This document shows, in pieces, positions 1,399 through 20,345 of a DNA stretch of 22,219 nucleotides. The notes under the pieces are model-generated. The model saw only the letters and a list, made by a program, of their open reading frames with translations. It was not told where the DNA came from and made no database searches. Numbering within the stretch: position 1 is the first letter of the stretch; the number at the start of each line of letters is the position of its first letter. Origin of the DNA: a virus; IMG/VR virus record IMGVR_UViG_3300006793_004801, positions 1 to 22,219 of that record; one strand, given 5' to 3'. The position numbers were made by a program, and so were the translations under genes.

Positions 1399-1806
1399 AT
1401 GGCCGTTCACTCATACACAGGTTGCACAGGAAAAATCACCGCCGGACCCGTCGGTTCTGAAACACTGGTTGGCTTCGTATCTGGCGACTTTTCGTTGGCT
1501 CAAGCAACTGGAAAATACATCACTCTCGGAACTAATACGAATGTTGCACACACTCGTGGTGTCAAGACCGTCAGCGGCTCTCTCAAGAAGGCTTGGGGAA
1601 TCTCCGACGAGGACTTATGGACTTGGTTCAACGGCTCTCTCGAATACAACATATTCTTCGACGCTGAACAAACTGGAACTGACACATATATTATTTCAGG
1701 CTGCATCCTGACAGACCTCGCTATTGAAGGTCTTGAGGCTGGTGCTGAAGGCGCACTTATGATTAACGCATCCTTTGAAGGTCTATCCTTCAACCGAGAT
1801 GCTTGA
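1399..1806 (+). CDS. Major tail tube protein
   Basis: A 135-residue protein rich in beta-forming residues, Gly and Thr, beginning MAVHSYTGCTGKI. It has the size and composition of tail tube subunits of long-tailed viruses, which stack as hexameric rings around the tape measure. The context is the strongest evidence: it comes directly before a G/T-like chaperone pair and the tape measure, the classic order in siphovirus and myovirus tail modules. The repeated short beta segments (GFVSGDFSLAQ, LEYNIFFDAEQ, GALMINASFEG) fit a tail-tube beta sandwich. No sheath gene is visible here, so a non-contractile tail is favoured, although a sheath gene could lie outside the window. ATG 1399 has no strong ribosome binding site. 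Confidence 0.75.
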   Translation: MAVHSYTGCTGKITAGPVGSETLVGFVSGDFSLAQATGKYITLGTNTNVAHTRGVKTVSGSLKKAWGISDEDLWTWFNGSLEYNIFFDAEQTGTDTYIISGCILTDLAIEGLEAGAEGALMINASFEGLSFNRDA

Positions 1807-2210: not shown

Positions 2211-2376
2211 ATTTTATTTTCATTTGCTGAAAGAACTCGGCATGACTCCGCAACAATGGAGAGAACTCGACCCTCGTGATTCAGCATTCTTAGCGAATGC
2301 CTTCGCCGAATCAAAGCGAAAGGAGAGGGATGAGATGAAGCGTCGTCAACAACGACAACGACATGGGAGGCGATGA
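2182..2376 (+). CDS. Tail assembly chaperone, lambda T-like C-terminal extension
   Basis: A 64-residue stretch in the -1 frame relative to the preceding chaperone. It is probably made as the C-terminal part of a G-T fusion through the GGGAAAA slip. It reads FSHTIEGQFYFHLLKELGMT, then a Trp-containing helix, then DPRDSAFLANAFAESKR and a highly charged Lys/Arg/Gln tail. T-type extensions of tail chaperones typically bind the tape measure, and this placement immediately before the tape measure gene agrees. If made separately it would start at GTG 2182, overlapping the TGA of the first frame by translational coupling. Its TGA stop (2374-2376) overlaps the first ATG of the next frame. The highly basic end could also contact nucleic acid. 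Confidence 0.65.
   Translation: MTFSHTIEGQFYFHLLKELGMTPQQWRELDPRDSAFLANAFAESKRKERDEMKRRQQRQRHGRR
2366..2374 (+). promoter_or_regulatory. Ribosome binding site of the tape measure gene
   Basis: GGAGGCGAT differs at one position from the ideal GGAGGTGAT. GGAGG ends eight bases before ATG 2379, which favours that codon over ATG 2373, because 2373 overlaps the site itself. Confidence 0.6.
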
Positions 2377-2378
2377 GT

Positions 2379-4661
2379 ATGGCTAATGACATGAATATCA
2401 ATGTCAAGGTCGGTGCGAACACGCAGGGCTTCTCGCAGGGCATGAAAGGAGTTCAAGGTGGACTCGGTGCATCTGGCGCATCCATGTCCAAGTTCTCGAT
2501 GGGTGCGGTTGCTGGATTCGCAGCGGTTGGTGCAGCGGCTCTCGGTGCGGGTGCTATGTTGTTCAAGTTCGTGTCGAGTGCGACCAGTGTTTTCATCGAC
2601 TTCGAGGCTTCTCTGACAAAGACAGCGGCCATCATGGGGAAAACCTCGATGGATGCGATTCCTGAAATAGTGTCGGAGGTCGAGCGACTTGGAAAAGCAA
2701 CCAAATCAACCGTCAGCGAAGTCGCTGAAGCAGCCCAGATTCTCGCTCTCGCAGGTCTGGGGAGAGAGGATATTGTCGACCAAAAGGCACTTGAGAATCT
2801 CAACAATCTCGCTATTGCGGCGGGTGTCACAATCCCCGAAGCGGCGAGCGTGGCAATCTCCAGCCTGAAAGGTTTCCAGATGGAAACCTCCGAACTTGGT
2901 CGTGTCAACGATGTATTGTTGAACACGATGACTTCGACTTTCACCAACATTTCAGGCTTGGGAGAGTCGATGAAGTTCCTCGCACCAACCGCAGCGGCGA
3001 CTGGAATCTCGATTGAAGAAGCGGCTGCTGCCGTTGGAAAATTGGGTGACGCAGGGTTGCAGGGTTCGATGGCTGGAACTGCATTGAGAATGGCAATCAC
3101 CAAATTGCTGAAACCAACCGACGACGCTCGAAAATTGATGGACTCTCTGGGTCTTGACTTCTTCACGCTATCTCCTGCTGGAGAAGCGGCCAAATCAGCA
3201 CTCCGTTCCGTCGGTCAACAACTGGAGGTCAGTAAGATACAAGCGGAGGCAACCAACGCTCAAATGAAGGCTCTAAACGAGGAACTCTCGGACTTGAGCA
3301 TCGAGCAACAGACCAATAGCCTCGCCATTATGAAAATCAAGCGCAGGGCGGAGAAGGAGGGTCGTGAACTCAACAAGCGTGAACTGGAACAAATCGACAG
3401 ACTCGAAAGTGCAAATGCCGATTTGAATATCACGATGGCCGAGCGACGAATCGAACAACAAGTCGTCGGCGCAGAGCAAAAGAAAGTCAACGCCACACTC
3501 TCCGACCAGAAGGCCGAATACTCCAGTTTGAATAAGACAGTTCAAGAGCAAACGACGGGGTTGACAAGCCTCTCCGATGTGTTCGGACAATTGCAGGCTG
3601 CGGGTGCTACAACCAATCAAATGCTTGAGATATTCGGTGTTCGTGGTGGAACGGCAGCGAACATTCTTTTGTCCAATGTCGATGGCATGGATGAACTCAC
3701 AGCGTCAAATCTCAAGGCTCAAGAAGGCATGGGGAAAACCTCCGAGATGGTCGCAACGATGTCGACAACCACTCTCTTCGCCACTCAATCATTGAGTGCT
3801 GAATGGGAGGGATTCCTTCTCAAAATTGGAAAGGAGTTCGGACCCGTATTGCGAGATGAAATAATACCTGCTCTCAAAGACATGATTGTCGCTTTAGAGC
3901 CGAGCATTCCAGCATTCGCAGAGATGGCGGTGGCTATCGCCGAAGTGATTCCAATGCTCGCCGAATCTATGATTCCAATGATTGGACACTTTGCTCACTT
4001 GATGACGCTGCTCGCACCGATTATCAAATTGGTTGCGTATGCGATGGAGTTCATGTTTTTCTTCATGGAACCCGTTTGGCGAATGCTATCGGGAATCGCT
4101 CAAGTCATTGTATCAATTATCGAACTCGATTTCGATGGAGTTATCGACGGCTTGGCTACTGCTTTTGGCGCATGGTTTGAAGTTATCAATCCCGTTTGGC
4201 GTATATTGAAGTCAATAGCCCAGATGCTTGGATTCGACATGGGCGGATTGGCGAATGACATTGAAGAGTCGACTGGTTTCAATGTCGGCTCGGCTGCGGC
4301 TGGCGCTGGAATCGGCATGATGTTCGGCGGACCCGTCGGTGCGGCTGTCGGTGGATTGATTGGCGGAGTGTTCTTCGCCGAAGGTGGAATCGTGAGTGAG
4401 CCAACTGTTGGAATGGTCGGCGAGGCTGGAACAGAAGCGATTATGCCGATTGAAAAAATCGACGGAATTATCGCCAGTTCGTTGAAAAAAGCAGGGGGAA
4501 CTTCTATCGGGTCCGATAGGCCGAGCATAACTTTGAACGGAGGAATCCACATCGGCGCAGGCAATAATGTGAATAAGGCCGAAGTTCAAGAAGCATTTGA
4601 GAAGTCATTGATTGTTGCTTTGACTGGTCGAAAGTTCAATCAATTGAGAGGCGTGATTTGA
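2379..4661 (+). CDS. Tail tape measure protein
   Basis: A protein of about 760 residues that sets tail length and is ejected with the DNA. The N-terminus has a Gly/Ala/Met-rich hydrophobic stretch (GAVAGFAAVGAAALGAGAML). Residues of about 70-250 resemble the TP901-type tape-measure domain (FIDFEASLTKTAAIMG, AAQILALAGLG, VAISSLKGF). Residues of about 275-395 form a charged Gln/Glu/Lys-rich coiled coil. Residues of about 500-620 are hydrophobic and could enter a membrane. Near the C-terminus is GGIVSEPTVGMVGEAGTEA, a motif commonly seen at the end of tape measures. By the usual rule of about 1.5 angstrom per residue the tail would be roughly 115 nm. ATG 2373 is possible, but 2379 has the better-spaced ribosome binding site. 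The stop is one base before the next gene's ATG. Confidence 0.92.
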   Translation: MANDMNINVKVGANTQGFSQGMKGVQGGLGASGASMSKFSMGAVAGFAAVGAAALGAGAMLFKFVSSATSVFIDFEASLTKTAAIMGKTSMDAIPEIVSEVERLGKATKSTVSEVAEAAQILALAGLGREDIVDQKALENLNNLAIAAGVTIPEAASVAISSLKGFQMETSELGRVNDVLLNTMTSTFTNISGLGESMKFLAPTAAATGISIEEAAAAVGKLGDAGLQGSMAGTALRMAITKLLKPTDDARKLMDSLGLDFFTLSPAGEAAKSALRSVGQQLEVSKIQAEATNAQMKALNEELSDLSIEQQTNSLAIMKIKRRAEKEGRELNKRELEQIDRLESANADLNITMAERRIEQQVVGAEQKKVNATLSDQKAEYSSLNKTVQEQTTGLTSLSDVFGQLQAAGATTNQMLEIFGVRGGTAANILLSNVDGMDELTASNLKAQEGMGKTSEMVATMSTTTLFATQSLSAEWEGFLLKIGKEFGPVLRDEIIPALKDMIVALEPSIPAFAEMAVAIAEVIPMLAESMIPMIGHFAHLMTLLAPIIKLVAYAMEFMFFFMEPVWRMLSGIAQVIVSIIELDFDGVIDGLATAFGAWFEVINPVWRILKSIAQMLGFDMGGLANDIEESTGFNVGSAAAGAGIGMMFGGPVGAAVGGLIGGVFFAEGGIVSEPTVGMVGEAGTEAIMPIEKIDGIIASSLKKAGGTSIGSDRPSITLNGGIHIGAGNNVNKAEVQEAFEKSLIVALTGRKFNQLRGVI

Positions 4662-10045: not shown

Positions 10046-10354
10046 ATGGGAAAAACCCGCAGGTATCATGGCCGTGAAAATGGCGAAGAAGCAAAGTTCC
10101 ATCGCTGGTGGAGAATCAACGAAGGCGATGTCGATAGAAAAGACCATGACCGAAGCAAAATGCAACAGGTCGCAGTTCAGATTGCATGTGAAGAAGGTGT
10201 CAAACTGAAGAGTCGAAAGACCAAGAAGCCTCCGAACCGAGCAACCCCAAAGGGATATGGATTCAAAATCGGACAACACACACTGGATAAGTGGGAACTT
10301 GAACGGGCTGGAAAAACATCTCGATACAACGACCTCGACTGGAATCTGTTTTGA
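10046..10354 (+). CDS. Small basic protein of unknown function (cassette gene)
   Basis: A 102-residue, strongly basic protein starting MGKTRRYHGRENGEEAKFHR. It has an aromatic cluster (HRWWRINEGDV), a central Lys/Arg/Pro-rich stretch (KLKSRKTKKPPNRATPKGYG) and an acidic-aromatic end (DLDWNLF). I recognise no family. The charge suggests nucleic-acid binding or a disordered structural role. The start is supported by a TATA-like box 27 bases upstream, giving a leaderless transcript independent of the tail operon. It interrupts the normal order of tail tip and baseplate hub, and its stop overlaps the promoter of the next small gene. Such self-contained units in a late operon resemble morons. There are no membrane segments or Cys-rich motifs beyond one Cys. 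Confidence 0.65.
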   Translation: MGKTRRYHGRENGEEAKFHRWWRINEGDVDRKDHDRSKMQQVAVQIACEEGVKLKSRKTKKPPNRATPKGYGFKIGQHTLDKWELERAGKTSRYNDLDWNLF

Positions 10355-10742: not shown

Positions 10743-12569
10743 ATGGACAGCGATAGCATCGAGCGTTTCCATCGCTTGGTTCGGGCTGGTGACGACGAAC
10801 TCATCATCACCCCTCCAAAGGGGTTGCTGGATGAAATCGAGAATCTCGGAACTGACCCTCGACGACCACGAACCGCAATCGCTCGCTGGGCTTCTCAAGT
10901 CTGGGCTGAACACGCCAAAGAATCCAACATGGAGGCGGGTGGGTTCACACTGGATGCGAGTCACAGCGAGAAGGAATTGATGTTCAGACCTGCTCACTAT
11001 CCACCAGATTGGGGCTTGGATTTGATTCCATTCCCAAACGACACGGGTGGAGTATGGACACGAGATAGGATGACAACGCTATGCTACACGAGCCTGACGA
11101 CTCCAAGACCGTTTGACCCACATCTGCATGGTGCGGTGGGCGGAGAGGCCGCTGAAGCACTTGGATTTGGTTATCATTATCAAGGCCGAACTGGATTCCC
11201 AGACCAGCAGGACATCATCACTCGTCGTGGTGGGGGTCCGAGAGGTGGGTTCTCCATGACTACGGGTCCGACGGAGGGTGCATATCCAAGTGCAGTTCTC
11301 CCTCAACCAACATTCAATTTAGGCCGTTTAGGACACTCTGACGGCGGTTGGAATCCCGAAGGGCTACAATGGACTAATCGACCCAAAAGGATGCGTCTGG
11401 GAGGGCTTAGAAACGGCTGGGCGCATAAGGTCATGTTCGCTCGCTCTCGTCAAGTGATGTTTAGGAATCTGTATGGAGATATTGCACGAGATGAAGCGAC
11501 TCCCCAAGCACCGACGGTTGTCATCAATGGACTCAATGATTTGCATGGAGTCAAGTCGGTCAGCATGACTCAAACATTCAACGCACCAACAGAGGTCAAT
11601 ATCGAACTCAATAATCCCAGCGGAAAAAGAACAGGCTGGATAAAACGAGGCGACACAGTTCAGGTGTTCGCCAGCCCAAGACGGTGGGCGACTCCGCCAT
11701 TGGTGTTCACTGGGTTTGTTCACGAAGTTCACGAATCCAGCACAGACATTTCATTCAAGTGTTCGGACTCTCTGGGCTATCTGAATCTCGAAGTCGTGAA
11801 GAAGTCTATGACATACTTTCAAACCGATGCTGCAACGGTTGTCAAGGACTTGGTTGCGAACTCAATCTATGCCCCTCCAGTTGGTCGAATGGCGAATCAA
11901 TCCTTCGTCATTCTGCCTGCTGGAATGAACTTCGTTGGAGAGTCACGCTTATCTGCGGTTCAAGCAATTTTGAACATCATAAACAGCACACCGACACTCA
12001 ATCAAATCTATTGCTCTCCAGATGGCTACATCAATTTGAGAAGGCTTCGTGAGGTCGACGACCCGACAATCGTTCCATTGATTGGTGGCAGATTCCCACG
12101 AACTGCAGTTCCTCAAGACTTCTATCCAACCGCCATAGAGCGACAATCTGGAGATACGACTGGATTCAATGTCATCGTCGTAGCGAACAACGACATCGGC
12201 TTATCGGTGTCGATACCTGCTGCTGACAGCCTGCGCTATCCAGCAATCCCAGTCGAGAAGCGAATCGAGGACAAATCCATCACGGATGCGACCCAAGCAA
12301 AACTGGTCGGAGAGTATTATCTCAACACCCAATCGCTCAAGCGAGTCAGATGGATTGTCGAAGGCATTCCAGAACGATTTGACATCAAGGTTGGCGATGT
12401 CATTGAGTTCCAATCTGGAGAGGCCAGCCTCGCAGGTCGACACCGCATTTTCAATTTGACTTGGAACTATTCCGTCGGAGGTTCGACAATGACATTGACG
12501 GTGGGTCGTCAAGCAGCAGACCTGATGTCGACTCTCAAATACACACTTGGCGTATCTCAATCTGGATGA
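10743..12569 (+). CDS. Baseplate hub protein (gpD / XkdQ / gp27-like)
   Basis: A 608-residue protein whose residues of about 255-600 read like a tail hub: VKSVSMTQTFNAPTEVNIEL, then GDTVQVFASP, VFTGFVHEV and SFKCSDSLGYL in the first barrel. These are followed by DAATVVKDLVANS, CSPDGYINLRR and IKVGDVIEFQSGEASLAG. This is the pattern of gpD, XkdQ and T4 gp27-type hubs, which form the trimeric plug at the end of the tail. The first 250 residues are a Gly/Pro-rich extension not normal for the family. Its position between tail tip and giant fibre fits. ATG 10743 follows the previous gene by 38 bases. A weak TGATAAC box lies about 27-30 bases upstream, so leaderless expression is possible but unproven. 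Confidence 0.8.
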   Translation: MDSDSIERFHRLVRAGDDELIITPPKGLLDEIENLGTDPRRPRTAIARWASQVWAEHAKESNMEAGGFTLDASHSEKELMFRPAHYPPDWGLDLIPFPNDTGGVWTRDRMTTLCYTSLTTPRPFDPHLHGAVGGEAAEALGFGYHYQGRTGFPDQQDIITRRGGGPRGGFSMTTGPTEGAYPSAVLPQPTFNLGRLGHSDGGWNPEGLQWTNRPKRMRLGGLRNGWAHKVMFARSRQVMFRNLYGDIARDEATPQAPTVVINGLNDLHGVKSVSMTQTFNAPTEVNIELNNPSGKRTGWIKRGDTVQVFASPRRWATPPLVFTGFVHEVHESSTDISFKCSDSLGYLNLEVVKKSMTYFQTDAATVVKDLVANSIYAPPVGRMANQSFVILPAGMNFVGESRLSAVQAILNIINSTPTLNQIYCSPDGYINLRRLREVDDPTIVPLIGGRFPRTAVPQDFYPTAIERQSGDTTGFNVIVVANNDIGLSVSIPAADSLRYPAIPVEKRIEDKSITDATQAKLVGEYYLNTQSLKRVRWIVEGIPERFDIKVGDVIEFQSGEASLAGRHRIFNLTWNYSVGGSTMTLTVGRQAADLMSTLKYTLGVSQSG

Positions 12570-12572
12570 TTA

Positions 12573-12611
12573 GAGAACAAATCCATTGATATTAGCGAAG
12601 CATTGATATAC
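12573..12611 (+). promoter_or_regulatory. Cassette promoter C, driving the structured RNA region
   Basis: GAGAAC (12573-12578), CATTGATATT (12584-12593) and CATTGATATAC (12601-12611) reproduce promoter B almost exactly, with the two copies starting 17 bases apart. No start codon of a good gene lies 25-27 bases downstream. The predicted transcript start, about 12632-12634, falls at the beginning of a stretch rich in hairpins. Confidence 0.7.
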
Positions 12612-12632
12612 TTGATAGTGTTCCCTTAGATT

Positions 12633-13345
12633 GTTGGGGGCGCAAACCCCTGACCGAAGCGATACTTCTCGATGCGAGTCGAGGGGTGAATTGGAAACAA
12701 CAATGAGGCGTTCACATATTTTGAATGGCGATGCCCCGTAGTAAAACTGATAACAGGAGTTCTTCGGAACTTGGACAGGAGATTCAATGGGATTCAACAC
12801 ACTCTATTGCGCTCATTGTTGGACTATACTCGGACTAAACTGAAGCCCCAATTGGGGGGTGGAGGGGTGGCACTTCTCACCAAGTCGCAAAGAGTGGCTC
12901 TGACCTAAGTGGTTAAGGGCGTGAAGTCGGAACTTAGATTCCTTCACGATTCCTGACTACGCCGATACGGTGCTGGAAAATAGACCAGCAACGGGAACGG
13001 GCTGAAAGAATGCGTTAAACCGAATTAGTTCTGGGTGTGTTCGCCCCAGATGTAGTCGCATCCGTAAAGAACACAAAGGCGGTGAGTGAAGAAAAGCACA
13101 CACTCATCAAGGCTGGCGACGGATTCCAGTTCCCCCAAATCTCCATCGAGAGTGTCGTTTCATCCAACACTCCCATCCTTGCTGGGTTGGGTGTGGTCGC
13201 ATCTGTAAGGAAGCCGTGAACTCGGTGATGACGACCTTTGAGGACAAGTAAGACCCCCCTGCGTGGTGAAATCGGCGGCTTGAATCCTAACCCGACCTAA
13301 GCGAGTTCCTATCAACAACCACTTAAACGGCCAAGCCCGACCCTT
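12633..13345 (+). ncRNA. Large structured non-coding RNA candidate (about 710 nt)
   Basis: This stretch has no convincing gene but its own cassette promoter. Local helices visible by eye include: a three-way junction with 12646-12650/12683-12687 enclosing 12656-12659/12665-12668 and 12669-12672/12679-12682; 12758-12762/12767-12771 capped by a C(UUCG)G tetraloop; 12846-12849/12854-12857; 12871-12877/12891-12896; 12904-12908/12913-12918; 12920-12925/12943-12948 with inner 12929-12932/12939-12942; 12971-12976/12985-12990; 13030-13035/13045-13050; 13081-13088/13101-13108; and 13150-13155/13167-13172. Size and viral late-gene context recall ornate large RNAs such as GOLLD and ROOL, but I see no specific sequence match. 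It is not recognisably RNase P RNA, a group I or II intron, rRNA or tRNA. The 3' end is unknown. It could instead be a long structured leader of the 13350 gene. Confidence 0.6.
13051..13212 (+). repeat. Pair of 21-base direct repeats inside the RNA candidate
   Basis: Positions 13051-13071 and 13192-13212 share 18 of 21 bases, with core GTCGCATC. All three differences are transitions (A/G, C/T, A/G), and the copies are 141 bases apart. Both follow a CTGGGT stretch. The core TCGCATC is complementary to GATGCGA at 12671-12677. Confidence 0.7.
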
Positions 13346-13349
13346 TGAT

Positions 13350-16300
13350 GTGTCGCCAGCGCCAGCAATCACACCGTCGACGGGGATGCCCGTTGATTCC
13401 GTTGGGGCGTTGCCACCAATCGGCTCTCGTGGATTGCCATTGACTCTCGTCTTTATGGACTCACCAATGGACAATATCTCCGATGCTACTGGCACTCGCT
13501 TGGCTCTCTTTGATGAAGCAATCTGGCAACCACGAGCGACTCAATCGGCGAGTGTATCTGGAACAACAATCAACCCCACACCCGTCGTTCCATCGACCAC
13601 CCAATACGCATCTGGAGTCAATCCATTCCCATCATTCGATGGGTTGAATCAAACGGCGAGAGCGATGGGATTGAGAACCAATATCAGTTCTCCAGTTCTA
13701 AATCATAATCAAGCACATCTGTTGTTCGGTCAAATCGGCCAAGATGTCAGCAGGTCGAGATGGAGTCAAGACAAATTGACAAACACATTGTCGTTTGCTG
13801 GATTGTCAAAGACGGAGTGCGGTCAATATACCGACCATCCCGAACAGATGTATTCTTCTGGCAGACCTGCAAATCACACATGGCAAAAACCCAGCAGCGA
13901 CCAAATCAATCTATATCGAAGTCAATATGACTTGGCATTCGGAACAACTGTTGCTGCAACAACAAACAATTGCGTTGAAGAAACATTCTTGGGCGGCGGT
14001 CAAATCGAAGCGATTGTTCACGATACGATTCCAGCAATCCCATCAAACGGATTGGGAATTATCTATGGCGACAACCATAACTCGGAGTATTTGACGACCA
14101 TCGTGTCATCTCCACTTGATTCTCGTGCCACATTCCCAGACACAAACATGAACACCATCGACGATATTGGCGCTGGCGATGATGCCACCCAATTCTCGGC
14201 GAACTGGTGCGTGAACCTGCTCAATCAGCAACCATTCGTTTTGGGCGATGGAGTGACGGCGAAGAAAGGAACTTCGTCACCAGATGGAACGCTCGCTGCG
14301 GGTCCGACACCATCGGCGGCGATGTTGACAACCCAGTTCAGCGCTGGAACAACAACGATTCAGCACATATTGACAGATGATACTTTCAGCGATGGACAGA
14401 TTGCACCAACCCCTCTCATAAACACACCACTGGGTCGGGTCGATTTGGGTGCGAGTGTTGTCGCAGATAGTGTTGGTTTGATTGGATTCGAGGGCGTTAT
14501 AACTGCGACGGCGTTCTTCGCACCGACCAAGAACACAGACCCGAATGCGATTGCTGGAGTCGTGACAAATACAGACGAGTCGAAGGGCTACGCTGGATTG
14601 AACATTCAAGTGTCATCGGGAACTACGATGCGACGAAACGGCACTCGTCAAATGGATATTGCACCATACAAATACGGCTCGGATGGCGCAATCGTTCAAC
14701 CAATGTCAGATGCGTTGTCGACTAAGGCATCCAGAGGGATTGGCGTTGCCAATATCAGCGTTGAGAATGCCAACAAAACATGGTTTAGAAACACCCAGTT
14801 CGGCCACATCAACGCACCAATTCAAACCCCAGCAATCGGCAATTCAATACCGACTCCTGCTGGATTTGGCGGCGTGATGCAGGTCGGTGCGGCTGGTGGC
14901 GATGGTGGAATTATCGGGTCGAATACGGTTGGTGGAGATGCGCCAGCAACAATCGACAGTTCGTATTCAACGGGTCGTTGGATTGCAGATGGAGTTCCAA
15001 CAAAGGTCGAGATAATTCCTATCATAACAGGCTACAAAGATGTTGAGGTTTCAGTCGGCCAGTTCAAGGCGGGGCTATATCCAAGTGCAACGCCAATCAC
15101 ATTTAGAAAGCCATTGGTCGATTATCATGTAGTCGTGTCCGTAGTCAAGCCTTCTCATGTTCCAGACGCATCCGCTGACACTACGATTGGCAACACCAAC
15201 ATTGGGAGTCCGAACAGAAGGAATGACCCGAATCCGAACAGGCTGCATATCAACGCCGACTTCTCCGATACCCCAGCAACATTGTATCATGGCATATTCA
15301 GAATTGACCCACAGACTTTGGAACAGGTTTTCATCGAAGCGAGTGAAGGAACTCTCGCTGGTATTGTTCCCGACAATGACGAGTATATGTGCCAACATTC
15401 CGTGATGCCTCGTGAGTCGTTTTCTAAGGCCACAGGCGGTGCGATGATGATGGGTTGGGGGTTGCATCAAGCAACGCCGTTTAGACCCCTCGCATTGGCT
15501 AATTTGGACACTTTAGTTCCAGACCTATGTGCGGCCATAGAAGGTGGAGGTTCGTTCCAGAGAGGCGGTATATCGCACCTATGGGATGCAACCGCATTTG
15601 GTGGCGAACTGTTCGTCGGTGCTGACATCATTGACCCGATGCAAATGTGCATCAACGAGATAACTCCCAAGAACTCGCCGACGCAGTTCGGAATCTGGGG
15701 GAACGGTCAGGTTTGGCCTGATGGTTCTTTGACTCCGACTCGACCAAAGGGTTGCGAACTTTTGGTTTGGAGATATTCTCCAACAAACGACCCGTTGTAT
15801 TCCAGCAGCAGCCTCTATTTATCGAACCCGATACGAGATGCTTTTCCAACTGCATTCCAAACCTATCAACAATCGACTCACGATTCGATGGTTCGACTCG
15901 AAACCGACAAGGTGAAAGCGGGTCAACGAAAGAGTTCGCTCGGAATCGGTGCGGTCTGGGAGATTCACGATTGGGTCATGCCTCAATTGGAGATGATGAG
16001 ATACTTGGGTCGTGAAGAGAAGTTCAGCGTGACCCATCCAAAGAGCCATGAAGGCTTGAAAAATGGAAGCCCACCGATATTCCACCCGACACTTCATTGT
16101 TCCAGCCTGCGAGCAACCGACGAAGGAAAGTTCATCATGGCGGCGGTTCATGTTGACTACATCAAAACGGAGAATGACTATCCAGCGGTTGACATCAAAT
16201 ATCCATTGAATCCCGACCTTGACACTGGTGGATGCCCTGCTGGGTATTATCAATCGGGTGGAAAATGTATTCCAATGGCGGGTGGTGGAGATTATCCAGC

Positions 16301-19300
16301 GGGAGAGGGGCCTGACCCTCAATCTGGAGATGGAGTTCCAAACAATAACGACTATCCGTCACCCGTCAACGGGTCGGGTGGGTCGACTCCAAAGAGTGAC
16401 AATTTTTCAGCATATCCAACATGGTCGAAATTGATGGCGAACACACAGGCTCGTTCTCTCATCTTGATGTTCTCCGATATTGGGTTCGATAAGGACACAG
16501 GCTTGGCGCATCGAGGAAAAGCACTTTTCGACATCACTTGGGAAAAAATGAAAACTGGAACAAACACCGTTGATGAGTTCGCAACCCAAACATGGTCGCA
16601 GCCTGATACTTGGTGGAGTGGTGCGAGAATCTCATATTGGTATCAAGAATCGGGTCAAAGAGCCATTCCAATCACCTATGGCTCATACCCAGATTGTCGA
16701 ATGTCTTATGCAAATCTCCCTCGCTCGTTGCCGTTCCTCATCAACACATTCAACCAAGACATCGCTGGCGACCCAGTTCTCGGCGTTGCCAAAATCCAAT
16801 CTGGATTCCCAACCATTCAACCTGCTCTCGTAGCCCAAACCACGAATCCAATTTGGAACACCATACGAAGCAACGGCGACCCAGATTCTTTGGCAGCGTG
16901 GAGTGACACTCGACAGAAGTTCATTGATTTGACTCGATATGTTCCAACAACAATCGGCTTCGCTGACTTCGGTGCTGGTGCAAATCCTCATCAAGAACTG
17001 GGATGGTCTGGTTGGTCTTTTCCAAAGGGATTGTATGACCCAGCGGGGTATGGCGACAACACCGTTTTCTTCTCCGATGCACCAGAGGTTCTCGATACGA
17101 CAGGTTATGGAGTTCCAATAGTTCCAACCGAACAAGCGATATTCAAAGGATTCGGCGACAATTCGGATGATGTTGCTGGCAATTCGGCGGTGTATGCACC
17201 GTTGACAGCGCACTACGCTGACTTGACAACTGTCACATTCCCAGCAACCGTCACGAGCCTCATCGTGTATCAAAACGGCGACTTAGTTCAAGAGCGATTG
17301 ACGGCGGGTCCTCAAGGCTTTGGCTCAATCGGCGAACTGGCGTTTGTTTTGAATCAAACTGCGCTTTGCGATTATATTCCAAAGTATGACCTTGAATACG
17401 AAATATCATCTGGCGGTCAAATCGGATTCCAAGAACTCCCCGTTGGAGTCTTGGCTCGGACATATGACCCGAATGCACCACCACCGATTGACCCATCAAT
17501 GAACTGGGTGTCAATCACCATCGACGGCGTTGTCTATCCGTTCTCATCGGCGCAACCTTCGGGTCACAGATTGATGCAGGGTGTCAAGGGTGGATGGGCG
17601 CATCACGGACCCCTCCACTACGGTGTATCGACTCGATTCCATCCATACCGAGTCGACAGGGTATTCAAGCAGGTTCATGGCGGCGTTGGCTACAATATAC
17701 CCATCCATTTGCTCAAGCCTCCAGCGGTTCATGTGAGAGCCAGAGCAGGAGGGCAGAACTCAATCGAACTGGAGATGGAAACGCCGTTCCATCGAACAGA
17801 TAATATCCACTTAATCGGTGCATCACGATTCAATAACGGCTTCGATATGGCTGGTGATTCTCCACCAGATTCGCCTCGAACTGTTCAAGGTCAATACTTC
17901 TTGAGAACCAATCTATGGGATAAGCCAACATGGGGGTCGGCTGGTGTTTCAGGCTCTCTCATTGAACCACTTGAAGAAGTCGGTGCGAGAGTTCACGGAC
18001 CCATAATATCGGGGTCATTCGGACTTGAGGCGTTTTGGCACGACCACCCAACCGACCACTTTCACGCTTCGGCCATGCCGATATTGCCGAACACGGACTA
18101 CGACCTGCCGATGATTGAAAACAATCGGTATTCACCGCTGATGTTCTCTCGCAACAAAGAGATTCACGAACTCGATGTCCTCGCCATCTCCGAGCAACTG
18201 CAATCGAGCGTCGATGTGCATGTATCTCAATCGGCCAAACCATTCTGGGATTCAGGCTCAATTGCATCGGCGGTTGGAATGGGATTCGCAGATAATTATG
18301 GGTTGCACATGATTCAACGGCAATCCAGTATGGATGGCAACATGATACAACCAGTATCAACAGCCAGCGGAGGTTCAGGCTCTCAATCAATGGGAATGGG
18401 TCAAAGACAGGTGAGAACGCCCGAAGGAACTCTTCACCAGTTCTTCATCCGACGCTCATGTCAAACTGGCAGCAACAATCTCCCCCAATGGACTCACATC
18501 AAGAAGCCACTTTGGAGTGATTTGTTCTGGAATCGAAAGGCAACAAAGCCTCAACAAGCGAGTGCTGTTTTTGGTGGCGAGGATGAATGCGGACCCCTAT
18601 TGGCCTCGATAGGTGCTGGCCTGACAACGCCTGCTGACTACGACAAAGGTCGAGTCATGGGTGCTGCATTTGCTTCGGATTCGGCTGGAACGATTCACGC
18701 AGTTATCGAATATCATGCAAATCCAGATGATTCGGCCAATCATCGGGCGCACCGATTGTATTATCATAAGGCAACACGAACCTCATACGGTTCACAGCCT
18801 GAACCAATTTATGACTGGGATTGGTCGGTTCACACGCCAGTGTTGATTCAAGGAGGAACTGGATGGGATGGACTCAATGCTGGAGGAACGATGTGGGATT
18901 TGAGAATGCCTTCTTTGGTGTGCGACGGCGACGACAGATTGCATCTCGCATTCCAGCAGGTGTTGAGTCAAACAGGGTCGACGGGATTGCCTCAATGCTC
19001 TCGAATCTTTTACACGAGCAAATTGACAGACGAAGATTCATTCCCCACTTGGACACCCGTTGAAGCCAACGAAGCGAAGCCGTATGACAACCGATTCGTA
19101 TGCGTTCACGGACTCATCACAGATGCAGGACAAACATCGCTCAACCAAGCATCAGCGGGTCCGCATTTCACCACATACAACGATTGCCCGAAGGTCGTTT
19201 TGAGAGGCGACAACATACCCATCGTATTCTATCGAGGGCAACCAATACAATCATTCGCTGATGCAGATAGGAACTGGAATGCAATTTATTGCAGCGTCGG

Positions 19301-20345
19301 CCAATCTCCGAACCGAGTGAGTGACCCATCGGGTCGATTCACATTCGACTCCAACAAATCATTCCATGTAGTCGGACTCGCACCAGATTCCAAGAATCCG
19401 ATGGAACTGAAGAATGTCGTGTATTATGACGCAATCATTGACGAGAACGACAGAGCAATCGTGTTGACGACCAAAGACGATAGGGAAACCTCTCCAGCAA
19501 CCTATGCACCCCGCCAGACGCTCATCACGACATTCGATAGTCGAAAGACCCTTGAAGTGCAATACTCGGCCACAGACGGGCTGGGAACGCACATAACGCT
19601 ATGGCGAGGACCCGTGTATGATGGAACAACCGAATTGCGAAAGGTCGACCCGAACTACAAAAATGTCAGCCTGACGACAGATGGAAAAGGCAATATCCAT
19701 GTCGTCATGGGATTCTCAATGATTGGCGACGACCAATCCAGATATGGTGAAATCTATCGTGACGCTGCCAATCCGAAGGTTCGACAATCAGCACTCGCCC
19801 CATTGATTTGGGCTGCGACTCCAACAGGAAAAGAGAACATGCAGGGTGATGAAACGCCATACGCTGGAGGATTCATCAAGCCAGTTATTCCACCGAACTG
19901 GTCTGGTCTAATCACTCCACCATACCCACCATATCAAGACTCTCAAGTGGGTCGTGAGTATCAGCATTTGCTTCATGCTTGGATTCCATCATTGGAGTTC
20001 GACACGACGCATAACACACTTCGCTCGGTCAACATTCGATGGTTGTCAGTTCCCAGCCTGCGATGGGATTCGGCCAACAACACATGGTCGCCAGTGGGGT
20101 CAGCGCAGACTATGGCTGGAGAAGAGGACTTTCCACACCATAGCCCTCAATTGCGATTCCAACGATTCTGGGGCTACGATGCTTCGGAGATTGACCTGCG
20201 CTGGTTCACCAACGAACTGGCTTGGTATTCGACCAACACCAAAGGTTCAGAAGTGTATTATCCATCAAAGGGCGGAATACAGATGGAACTCGGTGACTCG
20301 ATTGAGGGTGGCGGAGAAGGTTTGGCTGGTTATCCAAACGGTTGA
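13350..20345 (+). CDS. Giant tail fibre / tip adhesin with C-terminal beta-propeller-like region
   Basis: A protein of about 2331 residues, rich in Gly, Asn, Pro and Trp with few Cys and typical of fibrous or adhesin-like virion proteins. Residues 1-950 show no domain I recognise. Near residues 961-976, GGCPAGYYQSGGKCIP forms a small Cys pair, followed by a Gly/Pro/Asn linker to about 1015. From about 1740 to 2240, spaced blade-like segments appear: AGTIHAVIEY, DDRLHLAFQQ, DNIPIVFYRG, NDRAIVLTTK and KGNIHVVMGF. DEDSFPTWTP resembles an Asp-box. This suggests a sialidase-type beta-propeller for glycan binding or cleavage; catalytic residues cannot be assigned. GTG 13350 and ATG 13386 are both possible starts; the frame is open from 13284. 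An AT-rich ACTTAAAC stretch lies about 29 bases before the GTG. Confidence 0.75.
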   Translation: MSPAPAITPSTGMPVDSVGALPPIGSRGLPLTLVFMDSPMDNISDATGTRLALFDEAIWQPRATQSASVSGTTINPTPVVPSTTQYASGVNPFPSFDGLNQTARAMGLRTNISSPVLNHNQAHLLFGQIGQDVSRSRWSQDKLTNTLSFAGLSKTECGQYTDHPEQMYSSGRPANHTWQKPSSDQINLYRSQYDLAFGTTVAATTNNCVEETFLGGGQIEAIVHDTIPAIPSNGLGIIYGDNHNSEYLTTIVSSPLDSRATFPDTNMNTIDDIGAGDDATQFSANWCVNLLNQQPFVLGDGVTAKKGTSSPDGTLAAGPTPSAAMLTTQFSAGTTTIQHILTDDTFSDGQIAPTPLINTPLGRVDLGASVVADSVGLIGFEGVITATAFFAPTKNTDPNAIAGVVTNTDESKGYAGLNIQVSSGTTMRRNGTRQMDIAPYKYGSDGAIVQPMSDALSTKASRGIGVANISVENANKTWFRNTQFGHINAPIQTPAIGNSIPTPAGFGGVMQVGAAGGDGGIIGSNTVGGDAPATIDSSYSTGRWIADGVPTKVEIIPIITGYKDVEVSVGQFKAGLYPSATPITFRKPLVDYHVVVSVVKPSHVPDASADTTIGNTNIGSPNRRNDPNPNRLHINADFSDTPATLYHGIFRIDPQTLEQVFIEASEGTLAGIVPDNDEYMCQHSVMPRESFSKATGGAMMMGWGLHQATPFRPLALANLDTLVPDLCAAIEGGGSFQRGGISHLWDATAFGGELFVGADIIDPMQMCINEITPKNSPTQFGIWGNGQVWPDGSLTPTRPKGCELLVWRYSPTNDPLYSSSSLYLSNPIRDAFPTAFQTYQQSTHDSMVRLETDKVKAGQRKSSLGIGAVWEIHDWVMPQLEMMRYLGREEKFSVTHPKSHEGLKNGSPPIFHPTLHCSSLRATDEGKFIMAAVHVDYIKTENDYPAVDIKYPLNPDLDTGGCPAGYYQSGGKCIPMAGGGDYPAGEGPDPQSGDGVPNNNDYPSPVNGSGGSTPKSDNFSAYPTWSKLMANTQARSLILMFSDIGFDKDTGLAHRGKALFDITWEKMKTGTNTVDEFATQTWSQPDTWWSGARISYWYQESGQRAIPITYGSYPDCRMSYANLPRSLPFLINTFNQDIAGDPVLGVAKIQSGFPTIQPALVAQTTNPIWNTIRSNGDPDSLAAWSDTRQKFIDLTRYVPTTIGFADFGAGANPHQELGWSGWSFPKGLYDPAGYGDNTVFFSDAPEVLDTTGYGVPIVPTEQAIFKGFGDNSDDVAGNSAVYAPLTAHYADLTTVTFPATVTSLIVYQNGDLVQERLTAGPQGFGSIGELAFVLNQTALCDYIPKYDLEYEISSGGQIGFQELPVGVLARTYDPNAPPPIDPSMNWVSITIDGVVYPFSSAQPSGHRLMQGVKGGWAHHGPLHYGVSTRFHPYRVDRVFKQVHGGVGYNIPIHLLKPPAVHVRARAGGQNSIELEMETPFHRTDNIHLIGASRFNNGFDMAGDSPPDSPRTVQGQYFLRTNLWDKPTWGSAGVSGSLIEPLEEVGARVHGPIISGSFGLEAFWHDHPTDHFHASAMPILPNTDYDLPMIENNRYSPLMFSRNKEIHELDVLAISEQLQSSVDVHVSQSAKPFWDSGSIASAVGMGFADNYGLHMIQRQSSMDGNMIQPVSTASGGSGSQSMGMGQRQVRTPEGTLHQFFIRRSCQTGSNNLPQWTHIKKPLWSDLFWNRKATKPQQASAVFGGEDECGPLLASIGAGLTTPADYDKGRVMGAAFASDSAGTIHAVIEYHANPDDSANHRAHRLYYHKATRTSYGSQPEPIYDWDWSVHTPVLIQGGTGWDGLNAGGTMWDLRMPSLVCDGDDRLHLAFQQVLSQTGSTGLPQCSRIFYTSKLTDEDSFPTWTPVEANEAKPYDNRFVCVHGLITDAGQTSLNQASAGPHFTTYNDCPKVVLRGDNIPIVFYRGQPIQSFADADRNWNAIYCSVGQSPNRVSDPSGRFTFDSNKSFHVVGLAPDSKNPMELKNVVYYDAIIDENDRAIVLTTKDDRETSPATYAPRQTLITTFDSRKTLEVQYSATDGLGTHITLWRGPVYDGTTELRKVDPNYKNVSLTTDGKGNIHVVMGFSMIGDDQSRYGEIYRDAANPKVRQSALAPLIWAATPTGKENMQGDETPYAGGFIKPVIPPNWSGLITPPYPPYQDSQVGREYQHLLHAWIPSLEFDTTHNTLRSVNIRWLSVPSLRWDSANNTWSPVGSAQTMAGEEDFPHHSPQLRFQRFWGYDASEIDLRWFTNELAWYSTNTKGSEVYYPSKGGIQMELGDSIEGGGEGLAGYPNG

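Follow-up and report, generated by a model that had tools for sequence, protein, structure and literature searches.

The stretch of DNA analysed here (the window, 22,219 nucleotides) belongs to a tailed virus, of which IMG/VR contains this 22.2-kb fragment. Besides a 1753-aa protein, it contains the following features:

2373-4661: tape measure protein
10743-12569: hub-like tail protein (PHROG tail match, E = 3e-8)
12570-13349: 780 bases without a gene, between the hub end at 12569 and the fibre start at 13350
13350-20345: giant 2331-aa protein with a GTG start, taken as the fibre
20910 onwards: helicase

The probable fibre has no Pfam or PHROG match. Its start at 13350 is backed by the closest relative outside near-identical fragments (L001/L002, in which the hub is 79% and the fibre about 66% identical), since similarity to L001 begins at 13311 and the context of the start is identical. 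Gaps elsewhere between major ORFs in the window measure 1-202 bases. The longest ORFs inside the 780-base gap encode 76 aa (minus strand) and 60 aa (plus strand), while a 111-aa minus-strand ORF overlaps only the right end of the gap. The view of the initial annotation that this gap holds no convincing gene in an otherwise dense genome is therefore borne out.

The left end of the gap carries a promoter, and its right end belongs to the fibre gene:

12584-12610, plus strand: promoter CCATTGATATTAGCGAAGCATTGATATA, a TATA-like box with a second copy of the same motif before it (from the motif count and the box-to-start spacing)
12629-12632, plus strand: predicted transcript start and single-stranded GAUU ahead of helix H1 (from the fixed 18-base spacing)
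13311-13349, plus strand: fibre-gene leader, which lies beyond the RNA and is conserved in L001

The window has five copies of the promoter motif CCGAANCATTGATATA where 0.6 would be expected (0 of 100 shuffles). One copy lies at 12595-12610 and others precede the small genes near 10046 and 10381, in agreement with the earlier proposal that the gap starts with a promoter of the type used by nearby small genes. In the members of the family that were read, the TATA-like box is located 18 bases before the start of the RNA, and from this fixed spacing we infer that the transcript starts near 12629.

Related loci were collected with the hub protein and a five-sequence hub alignment, which yielded 63 of them, and the gap was compared with these loci by blastn and nhmmer. 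In L067 the similar segments occupy the corresponding position and form two blocks with about 80% identity, and L028, L032, L053 and others have similar segments on the opposite strand. The elements share a common head, in which a TATA-like box is followed after 18 bases by GAUUGUUGGGG...CCCCGACCGAAG and then by a second hairpin. This head pattern was found in 17 stretches of viral contigs, and a search of 85,000 cellular genomes gave only three bacterial matches, which were taken as chance. A covariance model built from seven 5′ domains (R1) recovered members outside its training set, namely L083 (55.8 bits), L052 (27.3), L055 (24.9) and L001 (21.3, E = 6e-7), as well as L131 and L127, where the element is near the portal gene. 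A further model (R2) added L180 and L181. A descriptor consisting of the TATA-like box, 18 bases, TT, H1 and CGAAG found thirteen members at scores of at least 13.2, whereas the best other match scored 11.5 and 1 Mb of shuffled sequence gave none; the window scores 17.4 (listed as the identical copy in L008). The descriptor scan also added L128 and a second copy in L055, a virus that carries two different RNA heads (at 212 and 5871) about 5.7 kb apart on the same strand. Altogether, about 17 related elements are present across about 16 virus lineages (that of the window and about 15 others), and in this analysis the family was found only in viruses. Model and descriptor scans detected no copy in several long relatives (G006-G010), which indicates that the element is accessory.

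Several weaker candidates also emerged. Weak model matches in L141, L137, L171, L168 and L146 were rejected as coding-like sequence without a promoter. A hairpin pattern of the form CUGGG...GUUCGCCCCAG gave a single new true member, L121, near-identical to L067 in the part read, and its remaining matches were chance-like. At L153, 5545-5605 (G012), a weak match of 14.5 bits consists of an H2-like hairpin followed by AAAATTGGAAAC, with neither the promoter nor H1.

The 5′ module of the window consists of two hairpins and a short linker:

12633-12654, plus strand: helix H1, GUUGGGGG paired with CCCCUGAC, loop CGCAAA (pairing kept, with both-sided changes across lineages)
12655-12659, plus strand: linker CGAAG, invariant in alignments A4 and A5
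12665-12686, plus strand: helix H2, CUUCUCGA paired with UCGAGGGG, with a GCGA (GNRA) cap

The 5′ module of every member has the same order of GAUU or a similar start, H1, CGAAG and H2, with a GNRA-type cap in several lineages. H2 folds with differing caps (GCGA in the window, GGGA in L083, GAAA in L052). The arms of H1 are GUUGGGG/CCCCGAC in L075, GUUCGGG/CCUGAAC in L131, GUAGC/GCUAC in L128 and GUGUCGGG/CCUGACGC in the second copy of L055. Across 13 sequences, 98.3% of the cells in H1 and H2 are paired and 6 of the 15 pairs show both-sided changes (in shuffles the mean is 1.4 and 0 of 500 reach this; sliding the register yields 0 or 1), although these counts lean towards structure because the sequences were aligned by a model built with that structure. 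In a MAFFT alignment, which is independent of the structure model, both-sided changes are still present. When hand-picked arms were swapped between lineages, pairing dropped to 78% in H1 (99% before the swap) and to 52% in H2 (100% before the swap). Helices with compensatory changes are thus present in homologous viral loci. Single-sequence folding of the 5′ domain gave z values from -2.5 to -4.6 in seven of nine sequences and was not significant in L001 (z -1.5) and L055 (z -0.6). The third pair of H1 is U-G in 7 of the 13 members. In L181 (about 1480-1570, minus strand) the H1-linker unit is apparently duplicated in tandem, as ...CCCCCTGCCGAAG followed by TTGTGGGGAAGTAAAATTCCCTGCCGAAG.

The other end of the RNA forms a domain with a homologue at the 3′ end of the element in L181:

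13181-13302, plus strand: 3′ domain
13181-13191 with 13291-13302, plus strand: helix A (terminal, 11 pairs)
13195-13203 with 13227-13236, plus strand: helix B
13213-13216 with 13223-13226, plus strand: helix C
13246-13249 with 13278-13281, plus strand: helix D

The final segment of the L181 element matches window positions 13159-13297 (nhmmer E about 5e-9). Between these two sequences, on which the support for the domain is based, all 28 pairs are kept despite 14 substitutions at paired positions, and 5 pairs are changed on both sides. Random placement of an equal number of substitutions was never as good in 100,000 trials, a figure that overstates the case because the choice of helices was made with knowledge of both sequences. 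The L181 hub is only about 43% identical to that of the window and yet the 3′ module is common to both, while it is absent from the nearer relatives L067 and L001, which suggests exchange of the module. The RNA of the window has no clear terminator; judging from the 3′ domain, it probably ends just after 13302, and would thus be about 674 nt long (12629 to about 13302), filling the gap nearly to the fibre leader. An imperfect direct repeat is also present in the window (13051-13071, TGTAGTCGCATCCGTAAAGA; 13192-13212, TGTGGTCGCATCTGTAAGGA), the second copy of which is the 5′ arm of helix B and the first of which may be a partial duplicate.

The features between the two modules are as follows:

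12688-12696, plus strand: 5′ strand of a possible helix P3, GAAUUGGAA
12705-12811, plus strand: middle block common to L128, including the UUCG hairpin at 12758-12771 (72% identity, E = 3e-6)
12876-13052, plus strand: second block common to L067 (80%)
12920-12948, plus strand: hairpin CGUGAAG/CUUCACG, within the block shared with L067
12971-12990, plus strand: hairpin UGCUGG/CCAGCA, which is UUCUGG/CCAGAA in L067
13031-13049, plus strand: hairpin CUGGG/CCCAG, within the block shared with L067
13124-13132, plus strand: 3′ strand of the possible helix P3, UUCCAGUUC

For the possible long-range helix P3, p is 0.065 in the window alone, and the combined value is about 0.001 for seven lineages and about 0.005 for all ten; the partners found elsewhere form 10 pairs in L001 and 15 in L028. 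Support is poor for the middle third of the RNA in the window. A pairing of the linker CGAA with UUCG in the loop at 13036-13044 was considered and abandoned, since neither stretch varies among the compared members and the pairing is hence beyond the reach of covariation. A natural deletion is seen in L127 (388-680), a short member of about 290 bases in which the 5′ module and the final 78 bases are retained while most of the body found in L075 and L131 is missing.

The initial annotation had described about ten local hairpins in this region. However, local folding energy on the plus strand, relative to shuffles, is unexceptional (the mean z is -0.78 here and -0.55 elsewhere in the window), so such a list is by itself no evidence. 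Comparison backs H1, H2 and the 3′ domain, and in part also the UUCG stem, while most of the other hairpins are unproven. The UUCG hairpin can form and its stem AGUUC/GAACU also occurs in L128, which, however, lacks the UUCG loop. The eight-pair stem described at 13081-13108 can form as well but receives no support from relatives. The compact three-way junction could not be unambiguously identified, although the 3′ domain has such a shape.

Comparison with known RNA families gave no relative. An Rfam covariance search found no match for the window up to E = 10 and none for seven relatives up to E = 2; the only hits, to poplar-1 (window, E = 1.5) and P11 (L091 minus strand, E = 0.03), were far below the cut-offs and were discarded. 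No report of such an RNA was found in the open-access literature, and the RNA appears not to have been described before. A coding sequence is ruled out by gaps not divisible by three in the L067 alignment, where one-base gaps occur and no shared frame is seen; codon-like conservation is therefore absent. No group I or group II intron matched in Rfam up to E = 10, and the element is not an intron because hub and fibre are each a complete gene of their own, both of which are retained in L001 around a different element. A parallel in outline is GOLLD, which is also large, structured and encoded by viruses, has no known function and combines a conserved with a variable part (PMC12286853). However, the universally conserved part of GOLLD is 3′, whereas in the present family it is the 5′ module that all members share and the 3′ module that varies. 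GOLLD is often near phage tRNA genes, while ARAGORN finds no tRNA in the window, and it is often longer than 0.8 kb, while the elements described here span 0.2-0.7 kb and have an archaeal-type promoter. ROOL is likewise a large structured RNA of phages and prophages with no known protein partner (PMC12286853), but the window element is not near tRNA genes. Neither GOLLD nor ROOL matched in Rfam (gathering score; E ≤ 10 for the window, E ≤ 2 for seven relatives), so the element is neither of the two and kinship with these RNAs is unsupported, as the initial annotation had allowed.

The gene neighbourhoods bear on whether the element is a gene of its own or part of another one. It lies between hub and fibre in the window, L067 and L001, before the portal gene in L075 (with terminase upstream), L127 and L131, and beside the hub gene on the opposite strand in L028, L030, L081 and L084. 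In L083 it has no recognised structural gene close by, and replication genes follow further downstream. A very long structured 5′ leader acting as a riboregulator of the next gene (the fibre in the window, the portal in L075, L127 and L131) would account for its position just upstream of, and in the same direction as, a structural gene in the window, L067, L001, L075, L127 and L131, and for the only about 24 bases between the end of the possible P3 and the likely portal start in L075. In being promoter-proximal and upstream of a large structural gene, some members do resemble structured 5′ leaders and riboswitches. However, a leader is unlikely given that the element is opposed to the hub gene in four members and that the downstream gene varies (fibre, portal, a 667-aa protein). 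A terminator-like hairpin and T6 follow the element in L083, T6 separates it from the fibre gene in L001, and L001, the closest relative, keeps the fibre leader 13311-13349 behind a different, shorter element. The occurrence in at least four gene neighbourhoods, with opposed direction in four lineages, therefore indicates a free-standing RNA gene, the reading that the initial annotation had preferred to a leader of the 13350 gene. The interval before the portal gene, and that between terminase and portal in L075, would also suit a packaging or assembly RNA encoded within the packaging module, with a role comparable to that of phi29 pRNA, which is also encoded by a virus. We regard this as quite improbable, as other members are located among tail genes, L083 has no recognised structural gene nearby and many related viruses of similar size show no copy; no Rfam match to pRNA was reported either.

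The composition of the 5′ module raises two further alternatives. A short G+C-rich hairpin followed by CGAAG, in a family found only in viruses, could be a decoy or mimic of a host RNA such as a CRISPR repeat, which we presume the module to resemble. But viruses that differ greatly in their proteins retain the same module, and it heads bodies of 0.2-0.7 kb, which would be superfluous for a repeat mimic; this role is very unlikely. An operator or origin acting as DNA, whose inverted repeats merely resemble RNA helices, would explain why the element starts at a promoter and contains such repeats. It is extremely improbable, because H1 and H2 retain G-U pairs, which in a palindrome of DNA would count as mismatches and which point to RNA, and because the arms change in sequence and yet remain complementary.

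A second hairpin element, GCGCATACCGAGAATCCCNNNAGGGCAAAGTTCTCGCTCCCTGCGCC, is present in one or two copies between the RNA and the hub in L084 (about 2520-2620), L081 and L028. The outer arms of its copies differ but are complementary, a promoter-like TTCATATAGGAGTGG lies ahead, and it is possibly a second small RNA.

The virus of the window is likely an archaeal virus, because the promoters are of archaeal type and because the genes of the L002 virus include those for a family B DNA polymerase and for the small subunit of replication factor C. The best solved matches of the latter are the RFC small subunits 2chq and 1iqp (E about 1e-65), which we take to be archaeal. Among INPHARED phages there was neither a DNA match nor a match to the hub protein, and the host-marker profiles for PCNA and small primase had no matches. 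A chaperonin was not used as a host marker; its single match (L179, 143-1717, G008; 524 aa) is in a related virus without the RNA and by eye is GroEL-like rather than thermosome-like. Kinship with the magroviruses of Poseidoniales (PMC10160649) is suggested by inference.

At the level of sequence comparison, the promoter motif, its spacing to the RNA start, the pairing of the 5′ and 3′ modules and the independence from the neighbouring gene are established. The covariation of H1 and H2, the relatives and the lack of an Rfam match support the proposal that this probable archaeal virus carries a large structured RNA gene under its own promoter, and a discrete non-coding RNA gene is very probably present at this locus. 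Taken as a whole, the observations are probably best explained by a virus-only modular RNA gene with its own promoter, about 674 nt long and acting in trans. A trans-acting RNA fits the constant front module, the changing bodies, the own promoter and the varied neighbourhoods, and it is fairly likely that it acts so during infection. The gene would be transcribed rightwards from its archaeal-type promoter, starting at about 12629 and ending at about 13302. The constant 5′ module may be a docking site for one partner, which would be a protein or else a tertiary contact within the RNA. The variable body would be the working part, most likely in the role of scaffold or decoy for a complex, whether of RNA and protein or of RNA only, though we propose this role only tentatively. 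Body and 3′ module would be exchanged between lineages while the 5′ module stays fixed. The chances are about even that these RNAs represent a new class of large RNAs, restricted to archaeal tailed viruses, which have spread among viruses and gene neighbourhoods and in which a universal 5′ dock is combined with exchangeable modules to give, during infection, a scaffold in trans or a self-assembling particle.

The large structured RNAs of unknown function described earlier come from bacteria and their phages. If archaeal viruses have a family of their own, this would suggest that big RNAs arose independently in the viruses of either side. The modular build offers a direct handle, namely identification of what binds the constant front end, and the covariance models together with the 5′ and 3′ boundaries can now be used for checking metatranscriptomes.
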